The notes below the pieces were generated by a model. It did no database searches. It was not told where the DNA came from and saw nothing but the letters and a program-made list of their open reading frames with translations. A stretch of 64,000 nt of DNA, from the NCBI GenBank assembly GCA_008087055.1, contig VIEA01000001.1, positions 74,514 through 138,513 on the forward strand, given 5' to 3'. This document shows positions 38,578 through 63,489 of the stretch, in pieces (the stretch's first letter is position 1; each line of letters begins with the position of its first letter). The position numbers and the translations under genes were made by a program. This DNA is from Gammaproteobacteria bacterium LSUCC0096 (GTDB lineage: Bacteria; Pseudomonadota; Gammaproteobacteria; Pseudomonadales; Litorivicinaceae).

Positions 38578-38697
38578 TTTTTGACTCCGTAGTCATAGCG
38601 TTCTGTTTGAATGTCATATAGTGTCATTGTATTGCCATTTAAACGTGACACTCTCGATTGTACTACTTTGAACGACTTGCCTGAGGCCCGCCATTTT

Positions 38698-40086
38698 ATG
38701 AGCAAAAAAACCTTCGTACTCGATACCAATGTTCTTCTGCATGACCCTATGAGTGTATTCAACTTTCATGAACATGCAGTGGTCATTCCGATGACTGTTC
38801 TTGAAGAACTTGATGACATTAAAGATCGTAAGAAAAACGTAGCTGCTGAAGCGCGATCTGCGATCCGCATGGTGGACGAAGTGTTAGGGCAATCGACTCC
38901 GGAGGCGATTGCACAAGGAGTAGAAATTCCGGTCGCGTTGAAGGGTGATAGCGGGAAGCTCCTCGGCACTCTTGCGATCCATCGCTCACCACTTGCTGAT
39001 GAATCCAAAGGTCGTCTTGATGATATCGAATCCAATGACAATCGAATCATTAACTGTGCATTAGAAATTCAAAACCAAGATCCGACTCGTGAAGTCATCT
39101 TGGTGACTAAAGACATTAATATGCGCCTCAAGGCATTAGGTGCAGGACTGAACCGCGTTGAAGACTATCGTCGTGATCAGTTAGTCAGTGATGTTGAGTT
39201 ATTGCCATCGGGGCATTTGGAGCTCGAGACAGAATTCTGGAAACTCGTCACGGATGTTGATACGTGGAGCGAAGGGTCAAAAACTTATCATCGCGTTCCT
39301 CGCTCAGTATTCACTGAAGAAATTTACGCCAATCAATATGTCATCGACTCGACTGATGAGTTTGCGGCCCGGATTAGTCAGATCGAAGACGAGTCTGTGG
39401 TGTTACTCGATGTTGGGCGCCACCGCTTGGAAGATATGGAAGCCTGGGGTATTCGTCCGCTGAATGTGTATCAGGGGATGGCGATGCATGCGCTCTTGGA
39501 TACGGGTCTTGATTTAAATTTACTGATTGGCGCGGCAGGGTCAGGTAAGACACTGTTGTCTCTGGCTTGTGCGTTGGAACTTGTGGTTGAGCAGAAGCGG
39601 TATTCAAAGATTGTCGTGACGCGATCGACACCGCCGGTGGCTGAAGATATTGGATTCTTACCAGGGACCGAAGAAGAAAAGATGATGCCATGGCTTGCCG
39701 CGATTCATGACAATCTCGAGGCGCTTCATGAGCATGATGACAACCCAGAGGCATCGATGCGATTTGCACTTGAGAAAGGCAACATCCAATTTAAGTCGTT
39801 GAACTTTATTCGTGGTCGGTCGATTCAGGATGCGATCATTTTGCTCGATGAGTCGCAAAACCTCACACCGCAGCAGTTGAAAACGATCATCACCCGATGC
39901 GGTAAGGGGTCGAAGATTGTGTGCCTAGGGAACCTTGCGCAGATCGACAGCAACTACCTAACCGCGTTAACCTCAGGCCTGACCTATGTGGTTGAACGGT
40001 TTAAGGGATGGACCGGCGCGTCGACACAGCATCTTGAAGGGGTTGTGCGTTCGCGACTCGCGTCCTATGCGGAGCAAAATCTGTAA
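38698..40086 (+). CDS. PIN domain/PhoH-type ATPase
   Basis: 462-residue fusion of an N-terminal PIN ribonuclease-like domain (LDTNVLLHDP, acidic residues to about 180) and a C-terminal PhoH P-loop domain (GAAGSGKTLLSLA, LLDESQNLTPQQLKTIITRCGKGSKIVCLGN). This PhoH2-like layout is common in bacteria and is reported to link RNA unwinding with cleavage in some members. ATG 38698 is used, since it starts the PIN domain directly. The GT gene follows without a gap. Confidence 0.92.
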   Translation: MSKKTFVLDTNVLLHDPMSVFNFHEHAVVIPMTVLEELDDIKDRKKNVAAEARSAIRMVDEVLGQSTPEAIAQGVEIPVALKGDSGKLLGTLAIHRSPLADESKGRLDDIESNDNRIINCALEIQNQDPTREVILVTKDINMRLKALGAGLNRVEDYRRDQLVSDVELLPSGHLELETEFWKLVTDVDTWSEGSKTYHRVPRSVFTEEIYANQYVIDSTDEFAARISQIEDESVVLLDVGRHRLEDMEAWGIRPLNVYQGMAMHALLDTGLDLNLLIGAAGSGKTLLSLACALELVVEQKRYSKIVVTRSTPPVAEDIGFLPGTEEEKMMPWLAAIHDNLEALHEHDDNPEASMRFALEKGNIQFKSLNFIRGRSIQDAIILLDESQNLTPQQLKTIITRCGKGSKIVCLGNLAQIDSNYLTALTSGLTYVVERFKGWTGASTQHLEGVVRSRLASYAEQNL

Positions 40087-55298: not shown

Positions 55299-56072
55299 AT
55301 GAAGAAAAACGTCTGGTTTTTGATACTAGCTTTGAGTTCATCGAGTTTTGCATTTGATGGGCAACCACTTCAATACGAAATTGATTGGGGTCCAGTGACA
55401 CTTGCGGATGCCACTGTTGAATTGCTGGATTCGGGAGAGGTGCGTTCAGTCTCTGCTGATATTGCATCGCGAGGTGTCGGCGCCTGGTTTTCTGATTTCC
55501 AATCGTCTCTCGAGATCATGCGTACAGGTGATGGGATGCAATTACTGAATGGTAAGAGCACCTGGGGGGACGCGCTCAGCAATCTAACTGTGACTTGGCT
55601 GCCTGGCGATGAGAAGCCCCTCGTCGATTATTACCGATCGAAGCCTCGCGACTACGAAATCACGCCTGTTCCGGAAGACTCTGTTGCCAACACAGTGGAT
55701 CCATTCACCCCGATCTTTGAGATAGGGCGCGACTTAAATCAAACCAAACGATGCGAAGGAAGTTATCGAATCTTTGACGGTATTCGTCGTTACGATTTAA
55801 CGATAACGGATGGAGGTGTTTCTGAACTGACGTCAGACGATGCTGCTGACTTTCGGGGTCTTGCGCACCGTTGTGACATCACACTGACTCGCATTGGTGG
55901 TTTTTCGACCAAAAAGGGCCTGTTTAAGTTTGGTGAATCTGAAATCTCAAGAACACTCTATCTTGGTGAAATCCGAGGACATTGGGTGCCGGTTCGCTTT
56001 GAGATCTCTGCACCACTTGGAACCGCTGTCGCGCGACTGATCAATCTCAATCGCGCAGTTGCGGCTCAATGA
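55299..56072 (+). CDS. DUF3108 domain protein, exported
   Basis: 257-residue product with a signal peptide (MKKNVWFLILALSSSSFA). The mature part has LQYEIDWGPVTLADATVEL and VDPFTPIFEIGRDL, matching the DUF3108 layout, a beta-rich family of unknown function. It overlaps the convergent toxin gene by seven bases. Confidence 0.8.
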   Translation: MKKNVWFLILALSSSSFAFDGQPLQYEIDWGPVTLADATVELLDSGEVRSVSADIASRGVGAWFSDFQSSLEIMRTGDGMQLLNGKSTWGDALSNLTVTWLPGDEKPLVDYYRSKPRDYEITPVPEDSVANTVDPFTPIFEIGRDLNQTKRCEGSYRIFDGIRRYDLTITDGGVSELTSDDAADFRGLAHRCDITLTRIGGFSTKKGLFKFGESEISRTLYLGEIRGHWVPVRFEISAPLGTAVARLINLNRAVAAQ

Positions 56073-56464
56073 GTTGTCAGTAGTTTCACGCCCGGCAGTT
56101 GACTGAACTTGCGATCAAATGTGACCACTGGATAGGCGCTTTGGCGCTCTGCGTATTCTTGGATCATTAAATCGGAAAAGCCTTGGTTGCCGTGTTCGTA
56201 ACGATCGACGCATTTTGCGAGACTTTTAGGTGCCTCAAGTCTGAGTTTTGATATTCCCAGCAGAGACCAAAGAACGGATGCTATTTGTCTCCGAGTCATC
56301 TTTTTGACTGTTTCCATCACCCAGACACATTCTTGTACAACTTCTCGAGAAATATGAGCAGGATTTTCGACTGTCATCGAGCTTAAAAGCTCTCGCGCTA
56401 AGGCGTGCTGCGTTGGTTGATCATCGAAGAGTATGCGGATAACAACATTGGTGTCCAAAGTCAT
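56066..56464 (-). CDS. PIN-domain toxin, VapC-like
   Basis: 132-residue PIN nuclease. The acidic residues are visible: MTLDTNVVIRIL (first Asp), ECVWVMETV (Glu), and GFSDLMIQEYA followed by VVTFDRKFSQL (later Asp residues). Such toxins cut RNA, in several cases tRNA. It is translationally coupled (ATGA) to an AbrB-type antitoxin gene. Confidence 0.85.
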   Translation of the reverse strand: MTLDTNVVIRILFDDQPTQHALARELLSSMTVENPAHISREVVQECVWVMETVKKMTRRQIASVLWSLLGISKLRLEAPKSLAKCVDRYEHGNQGFSDLMIQEYAERQSAYPVVTFDRKFSQLPGVKLLTTH

Positions 56465-56757
56465 TTCGTATCCTCGCCATCAGGGTTTAATCCATCCGAC
56501 CAGGCTGTCTTTCTCGCTTCCTGTATGTCCTCGTCTGTCATAGTGATACCTGTATGAGAAAGGCAGCCGAGTAGCTTGATTGGTTCTTTGACTTTCACCA
56601 TGCGCACATACCCGTCGAGAGGAAAAAAGCGAATTTGATCACCGGGCTTCAGGTCGAGATGATCCCTGATCATTTTTGGGATTGTCGTTTGTCCTTTTTC
56701 TGTGAGCGTTGAGTCTTTTGGTAGCTCGTCATCATCGATCATCATGAGTGCCTGCAT
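56461..56757 (-). CDS. AbrB/SpoVT-type antitoxin
   Basis: About 98 residues. The swapped-hairpin DNA-binding segment is STLTEKGQTTIPKMIRDHLDLKPGDQIRF. The C-terminal tail (DEDIQEARKTAWSDG) probably blocks the toxin. Start is ATG 56757 or 56760, both after AAGGA. The usual gene order antitoxin-toxin fits a VapBC-like module. This pair is self-contained, with no mobile element nearby. Confidence 0.82.
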   Translation of the reverse strand: MQALMMIDDDELPKDSTLTEKGQTTIPKMIRDHLDLKPGDQIRFFPLDGYVRMVKVKEPIKLLGCLSHTGITMTDEDIQEARKTAWSDGLNPDGEDTK

Positions 56758-56881: not shown

Positions 56882-56908
56882 TAAAGCTGTTGTTTGATTT
56901 GCCGATAA
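56882..56908 (+). promoter_or_regulatory. Flagellar sigma-28 promoter upstream of small secreted protein
   Basis: TAAAGCTG (56882-56889), then 11 bases, then GCCGATAA (56901-56908). The -10 matches the FliA consensus at all eight positions and the -35 at six of eight. Transcription would begin near 56914-56917, at the start codon. Confidence 0.7.
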
Positions 56909-56916
56909 AAGGGGGT

Positions 56917-57297
56917 ATGAAGAATCTAAAACAAACTGTAGTCATGGTTGTGCTCGGATTGAGCGGTGCTGTTGCCTGGAGTCCACAGGTGCATGCCACT
57001 TGTTTTGGTAGTCAGAGCCAATTGACTTGTCATGACAACCTGACGGGCAACATCTATAACAGTCGGACCTATCGGCCACCTGCGGCTTCAAGACCGCAGG
57101 TCAAACAGCGATTTGGTTGGATGCCAATGCAGTCTCAAAGAAAGCTCGGGAATACGACGATTATTACCGGCCATACTGCAGGTCAAAAGCAGTGGAAGAC
57201 CTACGGAAAGACCTACAGTAATGGTGATTACCGAATCATTGGGTCAGACAGTCGCGGCCCAGTTCAGCGCACTTGCATTAATGGCAAGTGCTTCTGA
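56917..57297 (+). CDS. Small secreted Cys-containing protein, candidate flagellar regulon member
   Basis: Not recognised. The 126-residue product has a signal peptide (1-27, ending PQVHA) and a mature part with four Cys in two pairs (C29/C38 and C120/C125), rich in Gly, Ser, Thr, Tyr and Arg (pI likely basic). A sequence GNTTIITGHTAGQKQWKTY appears near the middle. A near-consensus sigma-28 promoter ends nine bases before ATG 56917, so the mRNA would have almost no leader. Next in-frame ATG is 56944. Confidence 0.7.
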   Translation: MKNLKQTVVMVVLGLSGAVAWSPQVHATCFGSQSQLTCHDNLTGNIYNSRTYRPPAASRPQVKQRFGWMPMQSQRKLGNTTIITGHTAGQKQWKTYGKTYSNGDYRIIGSDSRGPVQRTCINGKCF

Positions 57298-57299
57298 GT

Positions 57300-58175
57300 T
57301 TAGGTCGCAACCGGCCGGATGTGATTCTGGATCTTATCGAGAATGATGTCTGGTCTTAGTTCTGAGACTTCAACAAATTCTGCTTTGGGTAGGATTTTCT
57401 TCAGCGCTAATCCGATCGAAGGTCGGCTTCCAATCCAGTACACATTCGAAAAGTTCACCGCTTGGCGCTTGAGTCCTTGAGCTACAGGTAAGACAGAGTC
57501 TGAATCGTTCAAAACAACCCACCACTTTTGCACGTCGGTCGGTGGGAGCACGGCCAAATTTTGCGGACGGTATTTGTAAAAGCCCATGCGAATCACGCGC
57601 TGACCGTTTGCGACCAATTTTTTCGCAAGAAATCCGCTGGTTTCTGCTGGTTCAAATACAAGGCATAGCTCTTTTTCTTCTTCTCTTCTAGCAACCAGAT
57701 CAGCCAGCTCTTGGATGCTGCCAGGAACTTTCGGTGTCATGACGCTTGAAAAGTGGAATTTAGAAATATCTTTGATGTGACACACCTCAGATAAGGCAAT
57801 CGCGGTTTCTTGATCGATGGCCGCAAACTTCAGGCGATCTGTACGAATTTTGAGTGCTTCACAGAGTTCATCAAATTGCTCTAGAGCATCAGGTGCATCG
57901 GGTGTCGCACACACGATTGTCAGTGCGCGATCGTCTTTCGCATCATCCCACTCTTCAAGCTCACGGATAACAGCACGTCGGACGGCATCATTGACAAGCT
58001 CAACCTGAGTAATGGGAGACTGAACTATCCGGACTAGATATTTTTCTGCCATGTGGGCTAGCGAAGCGCCCAGAGCACTTGAATGTCCTTCCCAGGCTGG
58101 GGTTGCAACAATTACCGTACCGTTTTTATCGGATGCCATAGTCTTGCTCGTTTCTCGTGTCATTGTTTGAGGCAT
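57300..58175 (-). CDS. Hypothetical protein, 291 residues
   Basis: Not recognised. Cytoplasmic, without signal or membrane segments. It has alternating hydrophobic strands and acidic helices (TVIVATPAWEGHSSALG, KWWVVLNDSDSVLPVAQG), suggesting a Rossmann-like or two-domain alpha/beta fold such as that of universal stress proteins, but no motif decides it. The start is uncertain: ATG 58175, 58163 or 58139, none with a good ribosome-binding site. It is convergent with the small secreted gene, ending two bases after it. Confidence 0.65.
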   Translation of the reverse strand: MPQTMTRETSKTMASDKNGTVIVATPAWEGHSSALGASLAHMAEKYLVRIVQSPITQVELVNDAVRRAVIRELEEWDDAKDDRALTIVCATPDAPDALEQFDELCEALKIRTDRLKFAAIDQETAIALSEVCHIKDISKFHFSSVMTPKVPGSIQELADLVARREEEKELCLVFEPAETSGFLAKKLVANGQRVIRMGFYKYRPQNLAVLPPTDVQKWWVVLNDSDSVLPVAQGLKRQAVNFSNVYWIGSRPSIGLALKKILPKAEFVEVSELRPDIILDKIQNHIRPVAT

Positions 58176-58261: not shown

Positions 58262-59029
58262 TTAGGGCTTTTGTGTCAGTCGATAGGCCAACAGACCGAT
58301 CCATTCATGCAGAAGGATATTTAACTGCTCGGAGCCCGTGCCCAGATCCCACCGAAATTCTGTTGATGGAGTCCGTGATCTGAAGTCCACAGGATACGGA
58401 ATGACATGAATCCCGCGATCTTTAAAGATTTCAAATGCGCGTGGCATGTGGAACGCTGATGTCACCAAAAGCCAGGGTTTATCGCCTGCAAACCCGATTA
58501 AATCTTTGGTGTAGAGTGCATTTTCGAATGTATTCCGCGATTGGTTTTCCAAAATAATCCGCTCGGTTGATCCAGCAGTTTCATTGAAAAACCGAAGCGC
58601 GACGTCGCTCTCAGACAATGCTCCACGAACGAAACGTCCTGAGAAGCCACTAAACACAACCGGCACATCTGGGTAGCGCCTCATTAATGTCAGGGCTTCA
58701 GTCATTCGTTCGCCGGCGCCGTTCATGCTGACTTGATCATGGGCCTCTGTGACCAGCTCATTAAAAGCGCCTCCTAATACGATGATGCCCTCGATTTGGG
58801 TTGGCTTGCTGGATTGGTGTGCCAATTCATGACTGTGTAAGAGGGTGTTCCAAATCGGTGTTGCGCCAAGCAAAAGAGTCCAAAGGACGGTGACAATGGA
58901 AAGAAGGGCTGTGAAGCGACTCTTGATCCATAGGGCCAGTCCCCACGTTAAAACCAGTAACGCAAGGAGGTGCAGTGGCTGAATAAAAAACCAGACGAAT
59001 TTTGAAGTGATGAAATAAAGATCTTGCAT
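58262..59029 (-). CDS. YdcF/ElyC-like DUF218 membrane protein
   Basis: 255-residue protein with two N-terminal membrane segments and a DUF218 domain. It has IIVLGGAFNELV, VVFSGFSGR, SRNTFENALYTKDLIG and LLVTSAFHMPRAFEIFKDRG, typical of ElyC/SanA/YdcF. In E. coli ElyC affects use of the lipid carrier in envelope synthesis. The role here is inferred. Confidence 0.87.
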   Translation of the reverse strand: MQDLYFITSKFVWFFIQPLHLLALLVLTWGLALWIKSRFTALLSIVTVLWTLLLGATPIWNTLLHSHELAHQSSKPTQIEGIIVLGGAFNELVTEAHDQVSMNGAGERMTEALTLMRRYPDVPVVFSGFSGRFVRGALSESDVALRFFNETAGSTERIILENQSRNTFENALYTKDLIGFAGDKPWLLVTSAFHMPRAFEIFKDRGIHVIPYPVDFRSRTPSTEFRWDLGTGSEQLNILLHEWIGLLAYRLTQKP

Positions 59030-60215: not shown

Positions 60216-60242
60216 TAAATATTTCAATGTTTTTGCCGATAC
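60216..60242 (+). promoter_or_regulatory. Sigma-28 promoter of the stator genes
   Basis: TAAATATT (60216-60223), 11 bases, GCCGATAC (60235-60242). The -10 matches FliA consensus at seven of eight positions, the -35 at five or six. It is 50 bases upstream of the pomA start. Class IV (late) control of motAB is known from many polar-flagellated bacteria. Confidence 0.8.
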
Positions 60243-60291: not shown

Positions 60292-61053
60292 ATGGATATC
60301 GCTAGTGTCGTTGGCCTGATTGGTGCGCTCGCTCTGATTGTGATGGCGATGGGTGACCCAGGTCCCTTCGTTGACACTCCTTCACTGTTGATCGTATTGG
60401 GTGGCTCGATTATGGCCACCATGTATCGTTCCACACTTCCTGAATTCTTGGGCTTTGCCGGAGTAATGGGTAAAGCCTTTGGTGGATATCCAGATAAGCC
60501 TGATGAACTGATTGTTCAGCTCGGTGAGCTTGCAACCATTGCACGGAAAGACGGCATGATTGCGCTTGAGGGCCAAGAGATTAAAAACAAGTTCATGGCC
60601 AAAGGTATTTCAATGCTTGTGGACGGTACCGATGGCAAGTTGATCAAGACCTCTCTCGAGCGCGAGAACGACCAGATGAAATCCCGACATGCAGCTGGAG
60701 CAAGCTTCTTTGAGGCTTGGGCGGAAATCGCACCTGCGATGGGGATGATCGGGACACTCGTTGGTCTCGTATTGATGCTTGGTAACATGTCCGACCCGAA
60801 AGCGATTGGTCCTGCGATGGCGGTTGCCCTCTTGACGACGTTGTATGGAGCACTTCTTGCGAACGTGATTTTGATTCCATGTGCGATGAAATTGAAAACA
60901 AAATCCAGTATGGAAGCTCTGAATAACGAGTTGATCATTGAAGGTGTGATGTTCATCAATGATGGTGGTAACCCTCGCGTGATGGGTGACATGCTCGGAT
61001 CATTCCTTGATTCGAAAGCGCGTGAAAAAGCCATGGCGGCAATGGGTAACTGA
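60292..61053 (+). CDS. pomA: Flagellar stator protein, MotA/PomA (Na+ type)
   Basis: Inner-membrane stator unit, 253 residues with four transmembrane segments. It closely follows PomA: MDIASVVGLIGALALIVMA, SLLIVLGGSIMATM, APAMGMIGTLVGLVLMLGNMSDPKAIGPAMAVALLTTLYGALLAN. The length and the DPKAIGPAMAVALLTT segment are typical of PomA rather than E. coli MotA (295). GGGAGAG precedes ATG. Na+ coupling is inferred from the resemblance. pomB follows after nine bases. Confidence 0.92.
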   Translation: MDIASVVGLIGALALIVMAMGDPGPFVDTPSLLIVLGGSIMATMYRSTLPEFLGFAGVMGKAFGGYPDKPDELIVQLGELATIARKDGMIALEGQEIKNKFMAKGISMLVDGTDGKLIKTSLERENDQMKSRHAAGASFFEAWAEIAPAMGMIGTLVGLVLMLGNMSDPKAIGPAMAVALLTTLYGALLANVILIPCAMKLKTKSSMEALNNELIIEGVMFINDGGNPRVMGDMLGSFLDSKAREKAMAAMGN

Positions 61054-61062
61054 GGCTGATTC

Positions 61063-62292
61063 ATGGCTGACGACGACAAGGATCTTCTGGAGGAAGGCCA
61101 AGAAGCTGAAGAAGAGCTTCTTGAGGAGCCTGCCGAGCCCGAAGAGGAAGAGAAAAAATGTGAGGAGTGTGCCCCCTGTAAGGGCGGTGCCCCTGCTTGG
61201 ATGGCAACGTTCGCCGACATGGCGACACTGCTCATGGCGTTCTTCGTATTGATTCTTTCTTTCGCGGAAATGAACGTTCCGAAATACAAACAGATTACTG
61301 GTTCACTGAAGGCAGCCTTCGGTGTGCAGCGTTTGGTGCCTGTCGTTGAACCACCCAAGGCGCAGAGTCTGATAGCCCGCGACTTCTCTCCTGCGGTTGC
61401 CCAACCCACTCCTCAGCAGGTTGTCAAACAGGATACAACCGATCAAATGAAGAAAGAGGTTGAGCCGCAAACTGATACGAAATCGGCAGATTTTGAAAAC
61501 AATGAAGATTTCAAAACAGTACAGCAGGTTCTCGCACAAGAGATTGCTGAAGGCCAAGTCGAAGTCAAAATCGAAGATGAAAAGATCGTCGTTGAGCTCA
61601 CTTCACCTGCGAGTTCCGGCGGTGAAGGTGAGTCTGATAATGGCACATTAAGCGCCGGTATCATCGATCAAAAAACAGTTGAGATGTTTGCCAAAGTCGC
61701 TGACGCACAAGCGCAGATCGAATCTGAAGTGGTTGTGAAAGATGCGCAATCAGCAGATCAGGCAATGCAAGGTCAAAATCAGGGCGATAACGCAACTGCT
61801 GGCACGCAAGGCGACAGTCAGGGTGGACCGAGTGATAGTCAGTCTGTTGATGATTCGCTTGAGAAACTCAGAATGGAATTGTCGAACGAGATTCAGCAAG
61901 GGTTGGCCGAAGTTGAGCGCGAAGGTGACAAGATCATTGTTCGCCTCGCTGAACAGGGATCATTCCGTTCTGGCTATGCTGATCTTCAGCCTGGATTTCT
62001 ACCGTTACTGAACAAAGTGGGTGACGCGATTTCTAATACAAGTGGCACGGTCACTGTTGAAGGCCATACCGATAACGTGCCGATTGCCTTTAGTGAGCGC
62101 TTCCAGTCGAACTGGGATTTGTCAGCTGCACGGTCTGCCGCAGTTGCTGATTACCTCTTGGGTAATACGAATTTGCAGCAAGGTCGTGTGACGGTCGTTG
62201 GATATGCGGATAGTAAGCCAATCGCGTCGAATGATACCCGTGAAGGTCGCGCGAAGAATCGCCGAATCGAGGTTGTTGTTGATGGTGGTTAA
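61063..62292 (+). CDS. pomB: Flagellar stator protein, MotB/PomB (long linker)
   Basis: 409-residue protein. A very acidic N-terminus (1-32) precedes a CEECAPC motif (C33, C36, C39), the transmembrane segment with the ion-binding Asp (D52 in AWMATFADMATLLMAFF), a plug region, a linker of about 180 residues and an OmpA-like peptidoglycan-binding domain (VEGHTDNVPIAF, NWDLSAARSAAVADYL). Linker residues 152-198 look like a degenerate copy of residues 266-310 (EIAEGQVEVKIEDEKIVVEL versus NEIQQGLAEVEREGDKIIVR). Most MotB/PomB are 300-320 residues. Its end overlaps the Sel1 gene. Confidence 0.92.
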   Translation: MADDDKDLLEEGQEAEEELLEEPAEPEEEEKKCEECAPCKGGAPAWMATFADMATLLMAFFVLILSFAEMNVPKYKQITGSLKAAFGVQRLVPVVEPPKAQSLIARDFSPAVAQPTPQQVVKQDTTDQMKKEVEPQTDTKSADFENNEDFKTVQQVLAQEIAEGQVEVKIEDEKIVVELTSPASSGGEGESDNGTLSAGIIDQKTVEMFAKVADAQAQIESEVVVKDAQSADQAMQGQNQGDNATAGTQGDSQGGPSDSQSVDDSLEKLRMELSNEIQQGLAEVEREGDKIIVRLAEQGSFRSGYADLQPGFLPLLNKVGDAISNTSGTVTVEGHTDNVPIAFSERFQSNWDLSAARSAAVADYLLGNTNLQQGRVTVVGYADSKPIASNDTREGRAKNRRIEVVVDGG

Positions 62293-63004: not shown

Positions 63005-63031
63005 TAAAGACTTCCTGACTTCTCCCGATTC
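63005..63031 (+). promoter_or_regulatory. Sigma-28 promoter of fliS
   Basis: TAAAGACT (63005-63012), 11 bases, CCCGATTC (63024-63031), 42 bases upstream of fliS. The spacing is exact; the -10 departs from GCCGATAA at three positions, so it is weaker than the other two sites. Confidence 0.6.
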
Positions 63032-63072: not shown

Positions 63073-63489
63073 ATGGCGTTTCGTAAAAAAGGTCTGGCTA
63101 GTTACGGCGAAGTAAGTGTTCAAGCAGGAACAGCTTATGCCGATTCGGTTCAACTGATTCAGATGTTATTTGACGGGTTGATTGACTCACTGTCAGCTGC
63201 TGAAGGTCAGATTGAGCGTAAAGAAATCCAGGCCAAAGGCGAATCACTGAGCCGTGCGACTCGCATTGTGCTGGGCCTTCAAGGATCTTTGGATCTTGAG
63301 AAAGGTGGTGAAATCGCAGCCAACCTTGCAGATCTCTACGATTATTGCACGCGTCGCTTGATGCATGCCAACCTCAAAAACGATGTTGAGGCAGTACAGG
63401 AAGTAAAGCGCTTGATCAGTGAAATCCGCGACGCATGGTCGCAAGTTCCTGAGCTTCTTCAGCAGCAACAAGTCGCGAGTGTCGGTTAA
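63073..63489 (+). CDS. fliS: Flagellar export chaperone FliS
   Basis: Small helical chaperone that binds the C-terminus of flagellin and prevents early polymerisation. The 138-residue product has QLIQMLFDGLIDSLSAAEGQIERKE, SRATRIVLGLQGSLDLEKGGEIAANLADLYDYC and LMHANLKNDVEAVQEVKRL. The fliS-unknown-fleQ order is widespread in Pseudomonas-like genomes. fliC and fliD must lie elsewhere. Confidence 0.95.
   Translation: MAFRKKGLASYGEVSVQAGTAYADSVQLIQMLFDGLIDSLSAAEGQIERKEIQAKGESLSRATRIVLGLQGSLDLEKGGEIAANLADLYDYCTRRLMHANLKNDVEAVQEVKRLISEIRDAWSQVPELLQQQQVASVG

Follow-up and report, generated by a model that had tools for sequence, protein, structure and literature searches.

Genomic context of the small gene

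The window analysed here is a 64,000-nt stretch of the genome of Gammaproteobacteria bacterium LSUCC0096, and the gene under study is a small open reading frame on its + strand (56917..57297) that encodes a predicted exported protein of 126 amino acids. Residues 1-27 resemble a signal peptide, with a basic n-region, a hydrophobic core and an AxA ending (alignment judged by eye), and cysteines are located at positions 29, 38, 120 and 125. There is no lipobox: the residue preceding Cys29 is T, S or N. This predicted product agrees with an earlier, sequence-only reading of the DNA, which had described an exported 126-residue protein with four cysteines. Searches with the protein and its orthologs (see below) returned no Pfam family at E values up to 1 for any of the six sequences, no NCBIfam family over the cut-off (one match, E 0.21, in one of the six), a best match of only E 0.12 in the PDB sequence profile search and no match in a tblastn search of plasmids with the small protein. 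The AlphaFold models are poor (mean pLDDT 53 and 55); weak as they are, they suggest a leader helix followed by beta strands and thus perhaps a beta-rich protein. A PDB fold search (best E 0.03, TM 0.27) was set aside because of the poor models.

The gene lies in a variable slot. Its upstream border is a DUF3108 gene (55299..56072, + strand), and the other border is a DUF218 (YdcF-like) gene (58262..59029, - strand), which has this position in the window genome and in G001, G003, G008, G009 and G020. In the window genome, the DUF3108 gene and the small gene are separated by a pair of genes for a PIN-domain toxin and a PrlF/MazE-type antitoxin (56066-56748, - strand), for which no match was found at that place in the loci of five relatives. 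Directly after the small gene a HEM4-like protein (PF02602 with E 1.5e-4, below the cut-off) is encoded at 57300-58175 on the - strand, and the stator genes motA-motB (60292..62292, + strand) are located about 3.0 kb downstream.

All five relatives that carry the gene show the same order: DUF3108, the small gene, two HEM4-like genes (the first on the strand of the small gene, the second on the opposite one), orf79, Lcl_C, motA and motB, with motAB about 3.7-3.8 kb downstream of the small gene. The extra, 38-40% identical HEM4-like copy, which follows the small gene immediately and on its strand, is possibly transcribed together with it in these relatives. The window genome lacks this first copy and has the YdcF-like gene.

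Genomes without the small gene were found as well. In G001, G003, G008, G009 and G020 the DUF3108 gene is directly followed by the YdcF-like gene; in G014, a short gap and then orf79 come after it. Six genus genomes have an intact interval without the gene, and four of them (G003, G008, G014 and G020) are FliA-positive with motAB present. A core flagellar component would be expected in flagellated relatives; because these four FliA-positive genomes with an intact interval are without a copy, the small gene has to be regarded as accessory. Its absence from G013 is uninformative, since the contig ends inside the neighbouring gene; G013 is otherwise near-identical in this region (MotA 98%). In G009 and G001, motAB has been kept with a sigma-28-like box before motA (L113 2471-2497 and L114 5582-5608, respectively), although these genomes, 98% and 96% complete, gave no FliA match above the cut-off.

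A sigma-28 box next to the start codon

Direct reading of the sequence upstream of the small gene revealed a predicted sigma-28 promoter, TAAAGCTG-N11-GCCGATAA, at 56882-56908 on the + strand. It consists of the -35 octamer TAAAGCTG (56882..56889), an 11-nt spacer (56890..56900) and the -10 octamer GCCGATAA (56901..56908), and it ends 8 nt (AAGGGGGT) before the ATG at 56917. The same arrangement had been noted in the sequence-only reading, where the distance of nine bases was counted to the A of the ATG. The E. coli consensus for sigma-28 is TAAAGTTT-N11-GCCGATAA in the part of PMC2859248 that describes it; the box matches this consensus at 14 of 16 positions, and its -10 octamer is identical to it. 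The window contains a single instance of the combination TAAA-N13-17-GCCGATAA, and 100 shuffled versions contain none.

A 16-position matrix was trained on seven flagellar sites of the window genome, the box of the small gene not being among them. With this matrix the box obtained rank 4 of the 127,948 positions in the window; only the training sites of motA and fliS and a site at 39800 within a 491-aa open reading frame scored higher. Judged by the own-genome matrix alone, the box is strong, but it is neither unique nor beyond chance. Its placement does stand out: among 164 ATG-started open reading frames of at least 100 aa in the window and in the loci of the five relatives, the small-protein gene accounts for all of the four best boxes located 4-12 nt before an ATG. 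The orthologs in L002 and L005 are missing from this top list, as they were scored from in-frame ATGs 57 and 114 nt upstream. The site at 39800-39826 has the sigma-28-like sequence TGAACTTT-N11-GTCGATTC and lies inside its reading frame (38611-40086), with the start of the next long open reading frame 260 nt behind it.

The window genome encodes FliA (FliA_WhiG over the cut-off), and boxes of this type precede several of its flagellar genes. Eight exact matches to a loose sigma-28 pattern are present in the whole genome (1.94 Mb), six of them in the 131-188 kb part of contig C1, a stretch that also contains motA, fliA and the flagellin gene. If one mismatch is allowed, 112 matches are obtained compared to 56 for a reversed-pattern control, which is only a twofold enrichment; among 30 of these 112 loci that were read, seven preceded flagellar-looking genes. 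Six of the box-led genes were assigned with Pfam: flagellin (E 8e-46), FlaG (2e-19), FlgM (3e-11), ChapFlgA (3e-35), MotA (1e-28) and FliS (7e-38); the seventh, LPP20, was just under the Pfam cut-off. The sequence-only reading had mentioned sigma-28 boxes before the stator genes and fliS, and both were recovered, one at 60216..60242 (+ strand), 49 nt before the motA ATG at 60292, and the other at 63005..63031 (+ strand), 41 nt before the fliS ATG at 63073. With 34 nt for flaG, 39 nt for flgM and 55 nt for flagellin, the five late flagellar genes have box-to-ATG gaps of 34-55 nt. The motA box is near-invariant across the loci of the five relatives, including part of its T-rich spacer, and this conservation goes beyond the requirements of the sigma-28 consensus itself.

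Conservation of the box in the genus

Orthologs of the small protein were found in six of the 22 genus genomes searched, the window genome included; a profile search of 25 genomes of the family and 390 of the order yielded no further ones. Their identity is 60-72% within the matched part and 60-67% when the full length is considered; all have 126 amino acids, and the four cysteines are invariant. Weak matches in G073, G009 and G383 were rejected, having stops inside (the sequences of G383 and G009 were read), as were matches at E 0.1-0.4 in G001, G016 and G022 and at second places in G000 and G004 (of these, only the G001 sequence was read). FliA was found over the cut-off in 17 of the 22 genus genomes, among them all six that hold the gene. 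The gene is present in six of the 17 FliA-positive and in none of the five FliA-negative genomes; this difference, considered as a possible co-loss of the small gene with fliA, is not significant (P = 0.17).

The sequence-only reading had named beforehand the lack of a conserved box in relatives as the result that would speak against it, and all six orthologs found keep a sigma-28 box 7-8 nt before the start codon. The common form is T[ACT]AAG-N14-G[CT]CGAT, with an 11-nt spacer between the octamers in all six and an end 7 nt (in the window 8 nt) before the ATG, which is at the aligned position in every ortholog. The box pair of the window, TAAAGCTG/GCCGATAA, corresponds to TAAAGGAT/GCCGATTC, TTAAGGAT/GTCGATTC (found twice), TCAAGGAA/GTCGATTT and TCAAGGAT/GTCGATTC in the relatives. 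Mean pairwise identity among the six is 74% in the -35 box and 82% in the -10 box, compared to 24% in the far flank, 41% in the near flank, 53% in the spacer and 33% in the leader. Comparing the window with the other five only, the values are 0.53 (-35) and 0.65 (-10) for the boxes and 0.22-0.30 for the remaining segments. L003-L006 are alike in the spacer too (0.82), and the six orthologs therefore represent about three independent lineages, namely the window, L002 and L003-L006. Synonymous divergence (dS) is at least 0.86 or beyond the range of the method in 14 of the 15 pairs, and all nine pairs involving the window or L002 exceed 2.7 or gave no computable value. A result to the contrary is that the box of L005 reaches only 6.8 bits with the own-genome matrix and is outside the best five sites of its locus.

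The pattern THAAG-N14-GYCGATTY, which was drawn to fit the relatives' own boxes, has 18 matches in the whole genomes of the five relatives compared to four in a reversed control. Five of these matches precede the small-protein gene and four flgM, one belongs to flagellin, one is inside fliS and seven are inside or near other reading frames; the names flgM, flagellin and fliS in the relatives rest on similarity to those genes of the window genome that were tested with Pfam.

Predicted transcript start and leader

At E. coli aer, the sigma-28 start is 6 bp past the -10 octamer (PMC2859248, in the part concerned with aer), and in C. jejuni the sigma-28 motif CGATwt is located 6-8 nt before the transcription start site (PMC3847290, likewise in part). 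By analogy, transcription of the small gene is predicted to start at 56914..56917 on the + strand, that is 6-8 nt past the -10 box with a leader of 3-1 nt, or one base further at the A of the ATG. In the relatives, the predicted start falls between 2 nt before the AUG and its A, and for L002-L004 the sole purine in the range of 6-8 nt past the box is the A of the ATG. Judged from the position of the box, the predicted leader of the six orthologs is 0-3 nt long. The sequence-only reading had likewise expected a start at or next to the start codon, and the conserved spacing in all six orthologs is consistent with this expectation.

Alternative translation starts further upstream were rejected. 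In-frame TTG, GTG or ATG codons are present upstream in four of the six (window, L002, L005 and L006), mostly at differing places, and the ATGs in L002 and L005 belong to these. Upstream of the ATG next to the box, the frames of L003 and L004 reach a stop without a further ATG, GTG or TTG, and all six proteins can be aligned over their whole length when read from this ATG, which further disfavours such starts. For the five relatives, predicted Shine-Dalgarno pairing amounts to -1.7 to -2.4 kcal/mol, and for the window copy, which has a G-run before its ATG, to -4.2 kcal/mol. In 44 yardstick open reading frames, for which the first ATG was used as the start, possibly wrongly, values range from -9.3 to 0 kcal/mol; 20 pair more strongly than -4.2 and 30 more strongly than -2.4, and 10-14 are no stronger than the five relatives. 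Shine-Dalgarno pairing therefore does not single out the small gene, and the window copy is near the middle of the yardsticks.

Discussion

The interpretation we prefer, at a probability of roughly 0.7, is that the small gene belongs, as a conserved but accessory member, to the late regulon of sigma-28 (FliA) and has an almost or fully leaderless mRNA. Comparison of the orthologous upstream regions gives good support to the promoter part of this proposal, a conserved predicted sigma-28 promoter at leaderless distance before the gene of an accessory exported protein. Sigma-28 RNA polymerase would bind TAAAG-N14-GCCGAT and initiate 6-8 nt past the -10 box, at the AUG or at most three bases from it, and ribosomes would load on this 5'-proximal AUG without a Shine-Dalgarno site. 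The protein would be exported by the Sec system, cleaved after Ala27 and stabilised by two disulfides, resulting in a small periplasmic or surface protein that is made as filament and stators near completion. The box with its spacing and conservation, the boxes of the same type before flagellar genes, the signal-like N-terminus and the invariant cysteines are observed, and the start site, the leaderless translation, the dependence on fliA, the disulfides, the location of the protein and its motility-linked role are inferred. Expression together with the late flagellar genes, as put forward in the sequence-only reading, is favoured by the boxes of the same type; the flagellum-linked role that it added is hypothetical and would be that of an accessory gene, without a copy in four FliA-positive relatives.

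The sigma-28 promoter could be real and the translated mRNA nevertheless be a longer one from an upstream promoter, with the leaderless transcript being minor or silent. The mid-range pairing of the G-run in the window copy would suit such an mRNA, in the five relatives the same-strand DUF3108 gene in front makes read-through possible, and L002 and L005 offer in-frame ATGs further upstream. However, these upstream starts are not conserved and two orthologs have none at all, and in the window genome the opposite-strand toxin-antitoxin pair parts the small gene from DUF3108 and the box is still kept. Conservation is moreover found in the boxes, not in the leader and, between lineages, not in the spacer, and we regard the longer mRNA as unlikely. 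A chance resemblance, or the binding site of another regulator, would be in line with the higher matrix score of the site at 39800 inside a reading frame and with the merely twofold excess of the loose pattern over its control. It would have to explain why the position is fixed in six of six orthologs despite diverged flanks and why the box has the same form as those of flagellin and flgM, and is very improbable.

A further explanation concerns the function of the protein and does not conflict with the promoter part of our proposal. The small gene could be co-regulated but functionally unrelated cargo, encoding a clade-specific exported protein for colonisation, competition or adhesion that is timed with swimming and acts outside the flagellum. 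The variable slot, with six genus genomes having the interval intact and no gene, argues for this, as do the toxin-antitoxin pair in the same slot of the window genome and the missing box in distant relatives of other genera (see below). The vicinity of motAB in all six holders points the other way, but this proximity is weak evidence in either direction because non-holders share the neighbours without having the gene. We give the cargo explanation an even chance.

If the preferred interpretation, that of an accessory late gene with an almost or fully leaderless mRNA, is correct, a sigma-28 promoter fixed at leaderless distance throughout the clade might define a translational sub-class within the flagellar regulon, which we propose only tentatively and hold to be somewhat less probable than its opposite. 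One late exported protein would then escape Shine-Dalgarno competition and leader-binding regulators, and the other late genes would use normal leaders. In addition, an unnamed exported protein joins the predicted flagellar regulon of a probably marine bacterial group. The locus also provides a natural case for asking why a sigma-28 promoter is held at leaderless distance when five late genes keep 34-55 nt.

Small exported proteins with four cysteines are encoded in other genera of the order, too. A profile search revealed a distant relative, L072, in another family of the order (E 3e-5), which in turn has related proteins in four large genomes (L075-L078); together with its own genome these are five of 193. 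Comparison of the profiles of the small protein and the distant group with hhalign gave E 3.9e-5 and a probability of 70%. The proteins (L072/L074 and L075-L078) share the arrangement A-x-C...C-x-D..GN.Y...W...G...W...C-x(3-4)-C, as seen in the three of the five that were aligned, but are 21-24% identical to the small protein. None of the five distant relatives has a sigma-28 site with at least 10 of 12 core positions in the 500 nt before the match start, and the link to sigma-28 is thus seen in this genus only.

Bacterial leaderless mRNAs are a known class, lambda cI being an example, and with its AUG start and a predicted leader of 0-3 nt the small gene would resemble them. In S. Typhimurium 33 leaderless genes with leaders of 0-6 nt have been reported (PMC3293720), and leaderless mRNAs are common in Leptospira (PMC5243855), where sigma-28 examples may exist; both statements come from parts of these papers. 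A leaderless sigma-28 gene is not named in the portions covered of the literature on FliA/sigma-28 and leaderless mRNA. The leaderless genes of C. jejuni are tied to sigma-70 -10 boxes in the part of PMC3847290 that deals with them, whereas the box of the small gene is of the sigma-28 type. With both octamers and the N11 spacer it has the form of class III/IV flagellar promoters and of the boxes before flagellin, flaG, flgM, motA and fliS in this genome. It differs from these in being located 7-8 nt from the ATG rather than 34-55 nt, and would therefore leave no room for a Shine-Dalgarno leader.
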